A program made the translations under genes and the position numbers. 38,952 nt of DNA from an uncultured Pelagibacteraceae bacterium (GTDB lineage: Bacteria; Pseudomonadota; Alphaproteobacteria; Pelagibacterales; Pelagibacteraceae): positions 1-38,952 of the forward strand of contig CACGPY010000007.1 of the NCBI GenBank assembly GCA_902575095.1. The letters run 5' to 3'. The number at the start of each line of letters is the position of its first letter. The first letter of the stretch is position 1. The notes under the pieces were generated by a model. The model was not told the DNA's origin and made no database searches. It worked only from the letters and a program-made list of their open reading frames with translations. Positions 964-37,253 of this stretch are shown piece by piece.

Positions 964-2820
964 TTAGTGTTGCTTACCAAGAATAGCTTTACCTGTAGGT
1001 ATTCTTGTGTCGTCTACCATTTTTTGAACAGCTGGGCTTGGTTCTTTAGTCATTAAACTGACCACAACCATTACAACTAAACAAATTGGTGCACCGATTA
1101 ATCCGAATCTTAAGTGGTCGATACCTAAGAATGGAGTATTTACACCACCGAATATTGGCACAGAGAATTTAGGGAACACCCACAACAAGTATAATGTTCC
1201 TGAAGCAATTCCCGATACAATACCAGCGATTGCACCAGCTCTAGTAGCTCTTTTCCACCATACACCAAGTACAAGTGGGAAGAACAAGCCTGACATTGCA
1301 AAGTCAAATGCCCAAGCAACCGAACCTAAGATACTTGTTAGCCTGAAAGAGGCTATGTAAGCACCAGCAGCTCCGATTATTACTAGAAGTACACGAGCAA
1401 CTAAAAGTCTTTTAGCTGTATCAGCTTTTGGATCTATGATTTTGTAGTAAATATCATGAGATAAAGCATTTGATATCGCTAACACAAGACCGTCAGCAGT
1501 TGACATAGCAGCAGCCATACCACCAGCAAACACTAATCCAGAGATTACAAACGGTAGTCCTGCTACTTCTGGAGTAGCTAATACCACAACGTCACCTCTC
1601 ATAAACCATTCGTTCAACTGAAGTACACCGTCACCATTAAAGTCTGCGATAAATACTTGTTTAACTTCAGACCATCTTTGTACCCATTCTATCGACTGAA
1701 CTTCAGAAATAGATTTTCCGATAATTCCAGTTGGTAGATTCGGATCCATTAATGCCAACTTAGACAATGTCGCTAACATAGGCGCTGAAGAGTAAAGTAA
1801 GAAAATAAAGAATAGCGACCAAGCTACTGATTTTCTTGCTGCTCTTACAGAAGGAGTTGTAAAGTATCTCATTAAGATATGAGGTAACGATGCAGTTCCC
1901 ACCATCATACAAATCGCTAACGATAAGTATTTCCAGACAGCCATTCCACCTTCAGGTACTCCAGAGTGAGTTCCAGAGATGTATTTCAATCCTCCTGGTA
2001 CCCCAGCTGCTTTCATATCTGCGGCGCTGTTTTTAACTAGTCCAAATTGTTGTTCAAGTTCACCAAGTCTTGCAACTTCATCACCTAACATTAAGTGAGG
2101 GAAAATTCCTCCACCAACGTTTGAACTGATCCAGAATACTGGTATCAAGTAAGCGATGATTAATACAATGTACTGAGCAACCTGAGTCCAAGTTACGGCT
2201 CTCATTCCTCCAAGCATTGAACAGATAAGGATACTTATTAATCCTACCCATACACCTGCTTCAAACGGAATTCCAAGAGCTCTAGAAGCAATTGTACCCG
2301 TAGCGTTAATTTGTGCAGTTACATAAGTAAATGATGCTATGAAAAGCACGAATACTGCGCAAGCTCTTACAAGATTACCGCCGTATCGTGTTCCGATAAA
2401 ATCAGGAACTGTGTAACATCCAAATTTTCTTAGGTACGGAGCCATTAAAGTTGCAACAAGTACGTATCCACCTGTCCAACCTACTAAGAAGGCCATATAA
2501 GTATAACCACCAAAGTAAACTCCACCCGCTAAGGCTACGAATGAAGCACCTGACATCCAGTCAGCTGCTGTTGCCATCCCGTTAAATACGGTAGGCACTT
2601 GTCTTCCTGCAACATAGTAGGCATCTACTTGTATGGTTCGTGATAAATAACCGATTAAGGCATAAATCAAAACCGTGAAAGCCACAAACATCACTCCGAT
2701 GTTTTTAGCTGACACACCAGCTTGTTCCGCAATAGCCATCAAAATGATGAATACTATGAAACCACCTGTGTAGGTCCCGTATATCTTAGGAAGGTTTTTT
2801 ATAAAATCTCCTTTAAACAT
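964..2820 (-). CDS. Sodium:solute symporter large subunit (acetate/short carboxylate type)
   Basis: A 618-residue member of the SSS family in the inner membrane, related to ActP-type cation/acetate symporters and the two-component VC_2705-like group that pairs with DUF4212 proteins. More than a dozen hydrophobic segments are visible. The conserved stretch DAYYVAGRQVPTVFNGMATA (residues about 66-85) is the usual SSS region near the sodium site, followed by ADWMSGASF. An insert around residues 375-420 contains a loop DFNGDGVLQLNE (residues 393-404) matching the EF-hand calcium pattern. The gene begins directly after the small subunit, with its ATG next to the small-subunit stop. The exact substrate cannot be read from sequence; acetate, lactate or pyruvate are candidates, and nearby acs makes acetate plausible. 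Confidence 0.93.
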   Translation of the reverse strand: MFKGDFIKNLPKIYGTYTGGFIVFIILMAIAEQAGVSAKNIGVMFVAFTVLIYALIGYLSRTIQVDAYYVAGRQVPTVFNGMATAADWMSGASFVALAGGVYFGGYTYMAFLVGWTGGYVLVATLMAPYLRKFGCYTVPDFIGTRYGGNLVRACAVFVLFIASFTYVTAQINATGTIASRALGIPFEAGVWVGLISILICSMLGGMRAVTWTQVAQYIVLIIAYLIPVFWISSNVGGGIFPHLMLGDEVARLGELEQQFGLVKNSAADMKAAGVPGGLKYISGTHSGVPEGGMAVWKYLSLAICMMVGTASLPHILMRYFTTPSVRAARKSVAWSLFFIFLLYSSAPMLATLSKLALMDPNLPTGIIGKSISEVQSIEWVQRWSEVKQVFIADFNGDGVLQLNEWFMRGDVVVLATPEVAGLPFVISGLVFAGGMAAAMSTADGLVLAISNALSHDIYYKIIDPKADTAKRLLVARVLLVIIGAAGAYIASFRLTSILGSVAWAFDFAMSGLFFPLVLGVWWKRATRAGAIAGIVSGIASGTLYLLWVFPKFSVPIFGGVNTPFLGIDHLRFGLIGAPICLVVMVVVSLMTKEPSPAVQKMVDDTRIPTGKAILGKQH

Positions 2821-3077
2821 TAGTCATCCTCTCTTTCTGAGAAACCATGTTCTTCGTCGATTTTTTCTTGTTTATTTGCAGTCCAAAACAAAATTATCAC
2901 AAAGGCAAGAAGTGAACCTTGCGCAGTCATGTAATATGCTAGTGGATAGCCAAGAAAAGACATCGTGTTCAGTTCTGAACCAAACATGAAGATCACTAAT
3001 GAGAAGAAAGCCCAAAGAACCAATGTAACTATCATATGGTTTTTGGTCTTATTCCAATATGCGTCTTTATTTGACAT
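2820..3077 (-). CDS. DUF4212 symporter small subunit
   Basis: An 85-residue protein with two membrane segments (about residues 15-35 and 47-67), a basic N-terminus and an acidic, charged C-terminus. This is the layout of DUF4212 proteins, which accompany a subgroup of SSS symporters as a putative small subunit. The conserved opening AYWNKTKNHM matches the family. It is immediately upstream of the large subunit with a one-base overlap, so translation is probably coupled. A G-rich ribosome binding site lies just upstream (TCCCCCT at 3081-3087 on the plus strand). An 18-bp palindrome is centred about 30 bp upstream of the start. Confidence 0.88.
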   Translation of the reverse strand: MSNKDAYWNKTKNHMIVTLVLWAFFSLVIFMFGSELNTMSFLGYPLAYYMTAQGSLLAFVIILFWTANKQEKIDEEHGFSEREDD

Positions 3078-3098
3078 ATTTCCCCCTATTTATTTTTA

Positions 3099-3116
3099 AC
3101 TTTTTACGTAAAAAGT
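3099..3116. promoter_or_regulatory. 18-bp perfect palindrome upstream of the symporter operon
   Basis: The sequence is perfectly self-complementary over 18 bp around an ACGT core (3106-3109), flanked by T5 and A5 runs. It sits 22 bp upstream of the small-subunit start. It could be an operator for a dimeric regulator or fold as a hairpin in the mRNA leader. No partner regulator is identifiable. Confidence 0.4.
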
Positions 3117-3231
3117 ATTATTAGTTGTAGGAACCTTACCCATTATGAGTTTAATTTAAAGAGAAAAAAGGACCCTAAAACCAATTTGAAATGCTATAAG
3201 TTAAGTAAAATAAGGGTTTTTAAAATACAAC

Positions 3232-3861
3232 GTGAAATTGAATCTTGAAAAACTTAGAATTACTCTAAAAACAATGGGCGAATACTTATTTCCTGTTGAG
3301 AAAGTAACAAGCTATTTTAAAAGTATTAAATCAAAAGGCGATCTTCAAAAATTTATTCAGCAAAGATCAGCTCATGTTACTCAAACAACTTTGTACGGTT
3401 ACCTAAAAACTAGAATTGGCGTGAAGTATACAGCAATGGTTGATGACGAGGTTTTTTCCAAATCAATAAATATTGCAAAATGGAATATTTATATGATCGC
3501 AATTGCTGATTGCGCTTTTTATACTTTTTCATATTTAATAAGTAAAAAAAATCTTAAAGAGAACGATTGTAAAGAAATTTATTTAGATATAATAGAAAAA
3601 GAAAAAGTTAATGGTTTAAGTGACGAAGTGCATCTTAAAGCTAAGAGAGAATTTTTAAATCGATACGAAAAAATAGATTTTCATAAATATTATTTAGATA
3701 ATCCGTTTAAAGAAAGCTGTATGGCATTATATAATTGGGCACCAATAGCAGATGAATTAAAAATTTTAGATAAGGAAATAGTTTTAAATTCAATGAGATT
3801 AAAATGGAATTTAAAAATAGATGAATTTAAAAAGTTGACAAAAAATTTAAATTTTAATTAA
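3232..3861 (+). CDS. Conserved hypothetical protein
   Basis: A 209-residue soluble-looking protein with no signal peptide. It starts at a GTG; no ATG fits the N-terminus better. The most distinctive region is residues about 56-105, containing [13 protein letters not shown] and [15 protein letters not shown], followed by a charged helical second half. I have the impression that similar proteins occur across Alphaproteobacteria, but I cannot name a function. It stands alone on the plus strand between two minus-strand units. Its stop codon shares the bases TTAA at 3858-3861 with the stop codon of acs on the other strand, so no terminator can lie between them. Confidence 0.75.
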
Positions 3862-6014
3862 TCTCTATTTTGTCTATTTTCAACCAAGGAAGTGACAACG
3901 CTTGGGTCAGCTAAAGTTGTAGTGTCGCCGAGATTATCAGGTTCGTTCGCAGCAATTTTTCTTAAAATTCTTCTCATTATCTTTCCGGATCTAGTTTTAG
4001 GCAAACCTGGTGCAAATTGTATCACATCCGGGTAACAAATAGGACCAATCTGTTTTCGTACCCATTGTTTTAAATCTCTTTCTAAATCACCAGTAGGTTT
4101 CTCTTCAGCATTAAGTGTAACATAACAATACAAACCATTGCCTTTAATACTATGAGGAAAACCAACAACTGCAGCTTCAGCGACCTTAGGGTGAGCAACA
4201 AAAGCACTTTCGATTTCTGCTGTTCCTAAATTATGTCCTGAAACTATAATTACATCATCAACTCTGCCTGTAATCCAGTAGTAACCATCTTTGTCTCTTC
4301 GACAACCGTCACCTGTAAAATACTTTCCATCGAATTGCGAAAAGTAAGTATCAATAAATCTTTGATGATCACCATATACGGTTCTCATTTGACCCGGCCA
4401 AGAACTAGCCATACATAACCTTCCTTGTCCTTCGCCTTTAATAATTTTTCCATCTTTATCTACTAATACAGGTTTAATTCCGTAAAATGGTTTTGTTGCT
4501 GAACCAGGTTTTAAATCTATTGCGCCTGGTTGAGGTGCTATTAATATTCCTCCGGTTTCAGTTTGCCACCAGGTGTCAACTATTGGACATCTTGAGTCAC
4601 CAACTGTTTTGTAATACCACATCCATGCCTCTGGGTTTATCGGTTCACCAACAGTGCCTAATAGTTTTAAAGATTTTCTGCTCGTTTTTTTAACCGGACC
4701 GTCTCCCTCTCTCATTAAAGCACGAATAGCTGTAGGAGCAGTGTAAAAAGTGTTTACTTTATATTTATCTACTATTTGCCACCATCTTGAATTATCAGGA
4801 TAGTTTGGAACTCCTTCAAACATAATTGTAGTTGCGCCATTAGCTAGAGGACCATAAATAATATAACTATGACCAGTGACCCAACCAATGTCTGCAGTGC
4901 ACCAATAAACATCATTAGGTTTATAATCAAAAATATATTGATGAGTCATTGAGGCATAAACCATGTAACCACCTGTTGTATGCAAAACACCTTTTGGTTT
5001 ACCTGTTGAGCCAGATGTATAAAGAATGAATAATGGGTCTTCAGCACTCATTTCCTCTGGGTCGCATTTTGTTGGCGCAGAAGAAATTAATTTTTTATAC
5101 GAAACATCTCTTTCATTATTCCAATTAACTTGATTACCTGTCCTCTCAACAACAACACACTTTTTAACATTTGGACACTGATCTAGAGCCTCATCTGCTA
5201 TTTTTTTTAATGGAATTATTTTTCCCCCTCTAACTCCCTCATCTGCAGTAATTAAATATTCTGACTCGCAATCAGTAATCCTTGTAGCAATCGAGTCTGG
5301 AGAAAACCCTCCAAAAATAATTGAATGAACAGCACCGATCCTAGCACAAGCAAGCATAATGTATGCCAGCTCTGGGATCATAGTTAAGTAAATTGTAACT
5401 CTATCTCCTTTTTGAACACCTAAACTTTTTAAACCATTTGCAGCTTTACAAACATTTTGGTGTAACTCTTTATATGAAATTTTTTTGGAGTCAGCTGGAT
5501 CATCACCAACCCAAACAATAGCTGTTTTGCTTGGATTTTTTTTTAGGTGTCTATCAATACAATTAGCTGAAGCGTTTAATGTTCCATCATAAAACCACTT
5601 AATTTTTACCTCCTCTTTGCTGTATTTAACATCTTTAATCTTTGAATATTTTTTAATCCAAGTAATTCTTTTTCCTTCTTTAGCCCAGAATTTATCATTG
5701 TCTTTGATTGAGAGTTTATATTTCTTTTTGTATTTTGACTCATTAACATAAGCATGATTTGCCCAACTATCTGAAACTTTTATTAAAGATTTACCATCAC
5801 CATCTTCAAGCAGTTTTGGCGCTTTAAAATTAAACTTTCTAGGTTTTGCTTTCCTTGATTTAGATCTTGTTTTTTTTCTTTTTTTGGATTTCGATTTTTT
5901 TGTTTTTTTTACTTTTCTAGATTTCTTTTTAGATCTAATAATTTTTTTAGACTTTTTTCTTCTAGTCTTTTTAGTCTTTTTAGATTTTTTTTTCTTTTTT
6001 TTTCTTTTAGCCAC
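3858..6014 (-). CDS. acs: Acetyl-CoA synthetase with lysine-rich N-terminal extension
   Basis: Activates acetate to acetyl-CoA through acetyl-AMP, in the cytoplasm. Residues about 80 to 718 form a complete enzyme. The adenylate-forming P-loop [11 protein letters not shown] is at about 328-338, the TWWQTETGG motif follows, and the C-terminal [11 protein letters not shown] holds Lys678, equivalent to the lysine acetylated in other Acs proteins. Residues 1-60 are an added tail with 32 Lys and 9 Arg; without it the length matches the usual 650 or so. The start is GTG (6012-6014), four bases after an AGGAGA ribosome binding site that overlaps the EVE-gene stop. No alternative ATG exists before the enzyme domain. 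It is the last gene of tsaD-EVE-acs. Confidence 0.97.
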
Positions 6015-6018
6015 ATTT

Positions 6019-6024
6019 TCTCCT
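6019..6024 (-). promoter_or_regulatory. Ribosome binding site that fixes the acs start
   Basis: Minus-strand AGGAGA ends four bases before the GTG at 6014. It overlaps the TAG stop of the EVE gene (6025-6023), suggesting translational coupling. Its position supports translation of the whole lysine-rich tail. Confidence 0.75.
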
Positions 6025-6445
6025 AATTAGGTTTTATTTTACCCATCTTATAAATAATTTTCCAGCTTTTATAATCAATTGGCATTACTGATAATCTACT
6101 CTGTTTAATAAGTGGTAAATGAGAAATAGTCTTTGTTTTTTTAATCTTTTCAAGTGATATCGGGTATTTTATATACTCTTCGAACCTAACCTGGACGGCT
6201 ACAAATCTTTTTTTTTTATCAGTTTTGTCAATAAATGCTTCTTTAATTACTTTTACTATGCCAACAATTTCTTTTCCAATATTCGAATGATAAAAAAAGC
6301 ATAAATCACCTTCCTTCATTGCTTTTAAATTATTTGCTGCTTGATAGTTTCTAACACCATCCCAAGCTGCTCCTTTTTTTCCAGCTTTTTTTTGTTGATC
6401 AATTGACCAAACGTCAGGCTCAGATTTTACTAACCAATACTGCAT
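6023..6445 (-). CDS. EVE domain-containing protein
   Basis: A 140-residue single-domain protein of the EVE family (PUA-like fold, related to thymocyte nuclear protein 1). The N-terminal [16 protein letters not shown], then [13 protein letters not shown] and [10 protein letters not shown], are the hallmark segments; together they build the pocket that in related proteins reads modified bases. It is probably a cytoplasmic nucleic-acid-binding protein, but the ligand is unknown. It lies between tsaD (one-base overlap) and acs (8 bp gap). The tsaD link fits an RNA-related role, though this is inference. Length is normal for bacterial members. Confidence 0.9.
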
Positions 6446-7521
6446 TATAATTTTAATCCAGGTCCTTTCATGTAAGGAGCATTTTTATCTAAAGGCCATC
6501 TGGATTTAGCTGAAACATTAACATCGTCGATCATATTTCTTTTTAATCTTTGTATACCTGCCCAAGCAATCATAGCAGCGTTATCACCACAAAACTTAAG
6601 ATCTGGGTAAATAGTTTGAAAGCTCATTTCGTTGGATAAAAATGATAAATTTTTTCTTATTGTCTCGTTGGCTGCAACACCACCAGCTACTATAAATTGA
6701 AAACTTTTTTTATTTGTTTTTTTTCTAAACATTTCAACAGCAACTTTAGTTTTTTTGTAAAGAATTTTATTAATTGTATTTTGAAAAGAGGCTGCTAAAT
6801 TATATTTTAACTTATCTTTTCCGTTAATTTTTTTTGACTCTTTTAATACTGCGGTTTTAAGACCGGCAAAGGATAAGTTGCAACCTGCTTTATTTATTAT
6901 TGGCTCGGGAAGTTTAAAAAAATTTTTATCTCCTAACTTTGCAAATTTTTCGACATTTGGCCCACCGGGATAACCAAGATCAAGCATCTTAGCTGTTTTA
7001 TCAAACGCTTCACCCAAAGCATCGTCAATTGTTGTTCCCAGTTGCTCATATTTATTTACATCTTTTACTATTAAAAATTGGGTATGACCTCCCGAAATTA
7101 ATAATAACAAATAAGGAAATTCAATTTTTTTTTCTAAACCAGGACTTAGTGCATGTCCTTCTAGATGATTTACACCAACAAATGGTTTATTTGAAAACGC
7201 GGCGATTGATTTTCCAATATTTAAACCAACAGTTAAACAAACTATTAAACCAGGTCCAGCGGTTGCAGCAACACCATCCACTTCATCAATAGAAATTTTA
7301 CTCTCTTTTATAGCTGTATTAATTATATACTCAATATTTTCTAGATGAGCTCTAGCAGCTAATTCAGGGACAACACCACCAAATTTTTTGTGCTCCTCGA
7401 TCTGACTTGAAACCAAGTTTGACAGGATGTCCGCAGTGCCTTTATCGTTTTCTCGTATAACAGCTGCGGCTGTTTCATCACAACTCGTTTCAATTCCAAG
7501 AAAAGTTATTTTTTTAGCCAT
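6445..7521 (-). CDS. tsaD: tRNA N6-adenosine threonylcarbamoyltransferase TsaD
   Basis: Transfers the threonylcarbamoyl group to A37 of tRNAs that read ANN codons, working with TsaB, TsaC and TsaE. At 358 residues it has the usual length. Visible features are the opening LGIETSCDETAAAV (residues 8-21), the metal-binding His pair in NHLEGH (His119 and His123), the SGGHTQ nucleotide loop, and the C-terminal CGDNAAMIAWAG segment. The start ATG is read from 7521. It is the first gene of a minus-strand unit with the EVE gene and acs, and is divergent from hemC across 57 bp. Confidence 0.97.
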   Translation of the reverse strand: MAKKITFLGIETSCDETAAAVIRENDKGTADILSNLVSSQIEEHKKFGGVVPELAARAHLENIEYIINTAIKESKISIDEVDGVAATAGPGLIVCLTVGLNIGKSIAAFSNKPFVGVNHLEGHALSPGLEKKIEFPYLLLLISGGHTQFLIVKDVNKYEQLGTTIDDALGEAFDKTAKMLDLGYPGGPNVEKFAKLGDKNFFKLPEPIINKAGCNLSFAGLKTAVLKESKKINGKDKLKYNLAASFQNTINKILYKKTKVAVEMFRKKTNKKSFQFIVAGGVAANETIRKNLSFLSNEMSFQTIYPDLKFCGDNAAMIAWAGIQRLKRNMIDDVNVSAKSRWPLDKNAPYMKGPGLKL

Positions 7522-37151: not shown

Positions 37152-37232
37152 CCGCAAATACTTAAGTTTTTGCGGTGCTCTTGAAAACAAGAGTGTCGAC
37201 ACTAGTCAGCGAAGGTTCGCCCACTAGTGCGA
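37152..37232 (+). ncRNA. Three-hairpin structured leader upstream of ffh
   Basis: Three stem-loops lie in tandem in the dapF-ffh gap. Hairpin 1 pairs 37152-37158 with 37169-37175 (7 bp). Hairpin 2 pairs 37178-37183 with 37188-37193 (6 bp, extendable by two G-U pairs) around an AAAA loop. Hairpin 3 pairs 37200-37206 with 37223-37229 (7 bp), extends across a bulged A to 37196-37198/37230-37232, and has an inner 4-bp helix 37209-37212/37217-37220. No T-run follows. It has none of the conserved SRP RNA loop sequence. It may be a cis-regulatory leader of the ffh-rpsP operon or an independent small RNA; the strand is inferred. Confidence 0.55.
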
Positions 37233-37253
37233 TAGGTATTGGACGTTATTAAA

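Follow-up and report, generated by a model that had tools for sequence, protein, structure and literature searches.

A charge-selected polybasic N-terminal tail on the acetyl-CoA synthetase of most sampled SAR11 lineages

The acetyl-CoA synthetase (Acs) encoded in the window, by which we mean the whole stretch of 38,952 nucleotides that was analyzed, begins with a polybasic N-terminal tail that is translated, is under selection, and is no annotation accident. SAR11 bacteria rank among the most abundant cells on Earth and carry streamlined genomes (942,715 bases in 34 contigs for the SAR11 genome that contains the window), and most of the sampled SAR11 lineages retain these almost purely positive extra residues on one central metabolic enzyme despite that reduction. 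The positive front end was kept while its sequence drifted, which suggests that Acs is held against something negatively charged, DNA or RNA most likely.

The window Acs scored 1009 bits against the NCBIfam family TIGR02188 (cut-off 725), placing it in the AcsA equivalog. Pfam identified ACAS_N from residue 95, followed by 2 AMP-binding domains (AMP-binding and AMP-binding_C), and the C-terminal lysine of AcsA enzymes was present as Lys678 within a PKTRSGK motif. The enzyme had been described beforehand as otherwise normal, and the other 658 residues, which open with a variable linker, are indeed an ordinary acetyl-CoA synthetase by Pfam, NCBIfam, and the match to PDB chains. The preliminary description had also named Lys678 as the position targeted by acetylation, in line with its invariance and its alignment to the corresponding residue of chain 2p2f (Table 1); in other Acs enzymes, this position is a regulatory acetylation target.

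Table 1. Position of acs, its parts, and its neighbors in the window
Feature	Position	Strand	Remarks
acs, acetyl-CoA synthetase, 718 aa, GTG start	3858..6014	(-)	NCBIfam TIGR02188; Pfam ACAS_N, AMP-binding, AMP-binding_C
Polybasic N-terminal tail, residues 1-60	5835..6014	(-)	32 Lys + 9 Arg, no Asp/Glu; unstructured in model
Linker from tail to ACAS_N, residues 61-95	5730..5834	(-)	Sequence variable in alignment; pLDDT <50 up to residue 90
Acs enzyme domains, residues 95-718	3861..5732	(-)	Strong conservation
Acs GTG start codon	6012..6014	(-)	GTG 102/112, ATG 5, TTG 5 in genus loci (script-chosen starts)
AGGAGA ribosome binding site	6019..6024	(-)	Four bases ahead of GTG
Lys678 codon	3981..3983	(-)	Same residue in all 45 proteins of the alignment; counterpart of 2p2f residue 609
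EVE-domain protein gene, immediately upstream of acs	6023..6445	(-)	Pfam EVE, 8.9e-43
tsaD (tRNA t6A synthesis), upstream of EVE gene	6445..7521	(-)	TIGR03723
Sodium/substrate symporter small subunit, downstream of acs	2820..3077	(-)	TIGR03647
VC_2705-family sodium/solute symporter, putative acetate importer	964..2820	(-)	TIGR03648

The tsaD gene, the EVE gene, and acs follow one another on the minus strand with gaps near zero, and only 8 bases separate the EVE stop from the Acs start. This order is widespread: of 245 loci with at least 900 upstream bases, 243 have the EVE gene ahead of acs in the same orientation, a count in which, as in the reading of loci for the tail, some genomes were entered twice (e.g., L122-L139 and part of L150-L229). 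Our recount agreed with the 41 basic residues reported among residues 1-60, and the AGGAGA motif was found at the reported distance from the GTG start. The further claim that no ATG lies between this start and the enzyme domain can be widened, the GTG being the only in-frame ATG, GTG, or TTG within the first 95 codons. In the window, this GTG shares bases with an ATG in another frame (AATGTGG). Unlike the window, the commonest contexts before the Acs start in the genus, TTAGGAGAAATT (21 of 112 loci) and TTAGGGGTATTT (19 of 112), show ATT or TTT before GTG, and GTG is therefore the conserved Acs start. AGG, GGA, or GGGG was identified no more than 14 bases ahead of the start in 105 of 112 genus loci, and a stricter list of ribosome-binding motifs matched in 68.

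Scanning the window for Rfam families and tRNAs yielded no match close to acs; elsewhere, the Rfam ffh sRNA (RF01793, 42.4 bits) was identified at 37185-37237 (+), just ahead of an ORF at 37239 that we take to be ffh. A gene for a 209-residue protein (3232-3861, +) faces acs and was found downstream in all 74 loci with enough flanking sequence; this protein had no Pfam or NCBIfam match.

From 151 genomes of the genus, we read 117 acs loci, while the remaining 34 genomes included some with partial genes at contig ends (e.g., G004, G062, G086, G093, G114, and G129), the rest being without a listed full orthologue. Frameshifted or unconserved relatives had been named in advance as the finding that would speak against the tail, and in 114 of the 117 loci we found a basic tail that reads in frame into the domain, with contigs stopping at the tail in the other 3 (L088-L090). 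By a strict criterion, 112 of the 117 were open from the start codon into the domain, in keeping with the expectation that the tail is translated, and these loci rule out a mis-called start or a frameshift artefact. The 5 loci outside this set are the 3 contig ends and 2 with frame breaks at A runs (L072 and L119). In L072 and L119, the basic tail is in frame with the domain and the frame is broken farther upstream at a long A run, reflecting either an assembly error or a slippage-prone site. Including G062, 4 contigs stop at the tail, for which low-complexity DNA would account.

In the 112 genus loci with a clear start, the tail was 19 to 88 codons long (median 55), with a net charge of 12 to 53 (median 35). 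Lysine made up 47% of tail residues, arginine 18%, and serine 12%; phenylalanine accounted for 2.3%, leucine for 1%, tyrosine for 0.2%, and tryptophan for about none. Across the 5,759 tail codons, acidic residues numbered 8, where the pooled base composition per codon position predicts about 204; asparagines numbered 132 against a predicted 514, and stops 0 against 409. The absence of stops is partly due to the way frames were chosen, the acidic count is unaffected by it, and the loci are related, so that the events are not independent.

Substitutions were counted in 29 independent, non-overlapping close pairs of equal tail length and at least 80% identity. At tail lysine codons, A/G changes comprised 1 Lys/Glu exchange (position 1), 61 Lys/Arg exchanges (position 2), and 51 silent changes (position 3), and thus the charge was kept and the sequence was not. 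The same pairs had 174 single-base amino-acid changes in 5,148 tail bases, whereas the domain had 156 in 43,500 bases, so the tail changes in sequence far faster than the domain. Together, these counts show that selection maintains the net positive charge and the lack of acidic residues and leaves the sequence and exact length free.

The same counts bear on whether the tail does anything as protein. A-rich DNA could slip and expand at a gene junction of an AT-rich genome and leave a tolerated, functionless tail, and the DNA has features consistent with such low-complexity drift: the wide range of lengths, A runs that reach 7-13 bases at their longest across the 112 tails, shortening in 4 named loci, and absence from other lineages. 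Further, tandem units with 97% matches, of 30 bases in L074 (KKSRKKTRRV-like) and 45 bases in L239 (KKKKVSKKKKSVKKA-like), show tail growth by in-frame duplication. However, the rarity of Lys/Glu exchange beside silent and Lys/Arg changes, together with the shortfall of acidic residues and asparagine, argues against this account, which was already disfavored and which we consider improbable. Alternatively, a slow, AAA/AAG-rich, positively charged start could act on translation, with the tail having no part in the protein's function; the lysine-rich start and the long A runs would suit such an effect, but lysine and arginine codons replace one another freely, and basic residues continue well past the first codons, making it scarcely credible.

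We searched the genome of the window for comparable tails. Profile searches with 2 tails matched acs alone, and the second of them missed the acs tails in 18 of its own 20 genomes; because such searches are weak evidence, a sample of the genome was scanned frame by frame, covering 309 stop-to-stop frames of at least 100 aa in 238,952 bases (the window together with 10 pieces of 20 kb each, or roughly one quarter of the genome). The Acs tail, with 36 basic residues in 50, is the most basic stretch in these 239 kb, followed by frames with 24 basic and 10 acidic residues and with 22 basic and 4 acidic residues. A 147-residue frame at L271:9102-9542(+) has a very basic part (22 in 50) and resembles ribosomal protein bL21 with an added lysine-rich tail. 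The 2 nearest paralogues of Acs, a PrpE-like (propionate-ligase-like) protein and acetoacetyl-CoA synthetase, have ordinary N-termini and no tail; a third match, L004, was weak.

These paralogues weigh on the idea that the tail electrostatically collects anionic substrates, polyphosphate, or a partner protein that is acidic, thereby raising local flux. ATP and CoA are anionic substrates of Acs, and conservation of charge rather than sequence is what such capture would leave behind, but the 2 nearest CoA ligases use the same kind of substrate without a tail, and we rate this explanation as rather unlikely.

Among the family loci read, the tail was identified in genera g1, g2, g3, g4, g6, g7, g9, and g14 and in 1 of 3 loci of g5, with a small sample per genus except for g1. 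It was absent from all 4 loci of g12 and from all 9 readable loci of family f2, in which 2 further loci were truncated. Of 80 named loci, 73 were tailed (some with short tails, e.g., L186), 4 had short basic stubs (L182, L183, L187, and L190), 1 was without a tail, and 2 were on contigs that stop at the tail. L221 is unique among the named loci in having a different gene upstream of Acs, and it has no polybasic tail. In G248, a 984-residue open frame (C7:5776-8625) has, ahead of its main Acs match, a second one that is partial (residues 421-715, 77%), possibly a partial tandem duplication.

Outside SAR11, the matches listed in class and phylum searches generally began at about residues 75-80, and the outgroup Acs proteins that were read have a short, ordinary leader at the N-terminus. 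A lysine-rich tail adjoining the domain was found in none of 33 outgroup loci (L283-L315), comprising those whose match reached deeper into the region of the tail (whether or not stops interrupted it, and in some cases with a long open frame) plus 6 others, nor in 4 further outgroup loci. The outgroup maximum was 17 basic residues in 40, in L295, inside a 566-codon open frame upstream of the likely ATG start. Among the loci read, the tail is confined to the SAR11 family. In a tree built from 59 Acs domains, of which 42 are tailed and 17 are not (L257 and L259 omitted beforehand as truncated, L261 and L264 dropped as unreadable), tail presence needed 3 changes, against a mean of 14.9 in shuffled data, and none of 500 shuffles was as low. 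One gain and two losses would be compatible with this tree, with three gains as an alternative. Since the EVE gene lies upstream of tailed and tail-less SAR11 acs alike, the tail was gained at, or lost from, the EVE/acs junction. Some lineages have the tail shortened or lost, and the stubs, L221, and the tail-less g5, g12, and f2 lineages indicate that it is dispensable in some backgrounds.

In a structure model of Acs (45 sequences, mean pLDDT 62), residues 1-90 had pLDDT below 50, and the first helix or strand did not appear before residue 68. The tail is probably disordered, although with this mean pLDDT from 45 sequences the predicted disorder partly reflects scant information. A chain that is disordered, bears dozens of positive charges, and has few large hydrophobic residues would be expected to bind polyanions, and such a tail could bind any of them.

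We see about an even chance that the tail ties an otherwise normal Acs electrostatically to a polyanion. The likeliest such partner is nucleic acid, either nucleoid DNA or RNA and ribosomes. The tail is a polycationic, probably disordered extension at the N-terminus of a normal acetyl-CoA synthetase and is specific to the lineage; it probably arose within the SAR11 family, where acs was lengthened from its old start toward the upstream EVE gene. Its 12 to 53 net positive charges would bind the polyanion, and acetate would be activated at nucleic acid while the catalytic domains work as usual. A composition rich in Lys, Arg, and Ser, low in Phe, Leu, and Tyr, and with almost no Trp favors nucleic acid over membrane insertion.

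The gene neighborhood has prompted another placement, in which the tail lies on the anionic inner membrane and holds Acs beside an acetate importer, so that incoming acetate is trapped as acetyl-CoA. The VC_2705-family symporter and its small subunit were indeed downstream in all 74 loci with at least 2,900 bases downstream, mostly named Pelagibacteraceae loci with some genomes entered twice. Yet tailed Acs genes occurred without a symporter match in about 1.5 kb downstream (L230, L231, L234, L235, L238, L239, L241, L242, and L243), tail-less Acs genes occurred with the symporter (L240 and L244-L247), and the near lack of Trp and Tyr and the scarcity of Phe and Leu in the tail do not favor a membrane partner; we hold this placement to be unlikely. 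Symporter linkage as the cause of the tail was rejected, as tail and symporter did not correspond in the flanks examined (about 1.5 kb downstream for most loci).

Acetylation offers a further reading, in which acetyl-AMP or acetyl-CoA made by Acs acetylates the tail lysines as a buffer or switch, altering charge and location. The preliminary description had noted that Acs is controlled by lysine acetylation in other bacteria. The usual Acs/CobB form of this control (Pat/CobB type) is weakened here because a sirtuin was found in none of 20 SAR11 genomes, by a search that was positive in 10 of 14 controls, while histone-deacetylase-family (zinc-type) proteins were identified in all 20 (control search positive in 9 of 14). 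In the genome of the window, one such gene adjoins and faces the acetoacetyl-CoA synthetase gene (L003:3449-4342(-) and 1414-3345(+), respectively). These proteins favor an acetylation switch, but they were also identified in the 4 tail-less genomes of the set (G154, G161, G187, and G274), no sirtuin was found in the 20 genomes, and Arg, which cannot be acetylated in that way, replaces Lys about as often as silent change occurs; the switch is therefore very unlikely. AcuC-type control would call for a protein of the histone-deacetylase family that acts on Acs; the 2 such family members examined received no NCBIfam name, and the deacetylase count was rejected as a correlate of the tail, since 1 or 2 per genome gave no discrimination.

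A combined scheme would make the tail both anchor and sensor of a nucleic-acid-bound Acs, whose own acetyl-AMP or acetyl-CoA would neutralize the tail lysines when acetate is plentiful and free Acs from the nucleoid or ribosomes, with a zinc-type deacetylase resetting it. We consider this scheme still less likely than a switch by itself; such an Acs would parallel, in bacteria, the ACSS2 that is bound to chromatin.

If the tail does keep Acs on DNA or RNA, SAR11 cells would make their acetyl-CoA at a particular place. Our literature search returned no report of localized acetyl-CoA production in SAR11 by way of Acs on DNA or RNA, nor of a basic tail on bacterial Acs as a charge-selected trait of most of a family. 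Basic low-complexity tails are already known as a protein part. Nature offers a set of relatives that share the upstream gene and differ in having a full tail, a shortened one, or none, which makes the question directly testable.

The tail had been likened to histone H1 and AlgP, and this likeness holds for composition but not for family or motif. Pfam searches matched no histone-like family (H1, Hc1, or Hc2) and returned solely Acs domains, with E up to 1 for the window and 10 for 4 relatives, where composition-biased tails may elude HMMER. KPAA repeats mark AlgP-type tails, and neither KPAA nor PAKKA occurs in residues 1-60 of the window Acs. PDB chains 1pg3 and 2p2f, presumably from Salmonella, share the enzyme domains with the window Acs, Lys678 corresponding to residue 609, but they lack the polybasic tail, the match beginning at window residue 85 and chain residue 14.

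As a biased, positive segment whose disorder is taken from a model of moderate quality, the tail fits the definition of a Lys/Arg-rich low-complexity region. In prokaryotes, such regions are enriched among DNA- and RNA-binding proteins, according to PMC6821194; they resemble the Acs tail in composition, positive charge, and conserved presence, but they are described there on proteins acting on nucleic acid, whereas the Acs tail sits on a central metabolic enzyme. The lysine repeats of Streptomyces topoisomerase I, the subject of a work cited in that paper, are reported as a basic tail that keeps an enzyme on DNA, although the substrate of topoisomerase I is DNA itself, unlike that of Acs. PhaM and PhaF attach storage granules to the nucleoid by histone-like C-terminal regions and thus join a metabolic structure to DNA through a lysine-rich, natively unfolded segment, according to PMC9049629. 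In that account, they are separate adaptors with the region at the C-terminus and PAKKA in PhaM, whereas the Acs tail is fused to the enzyme, is N-terminal, and lacks PAKKA. It is on the expected binding of polyanions, together with the enrichment in PMC6821194 and the PhaM/PhaF example in PMC9049629, that we judge a nucleic-acid tether the likeliest role of the Acs tail.
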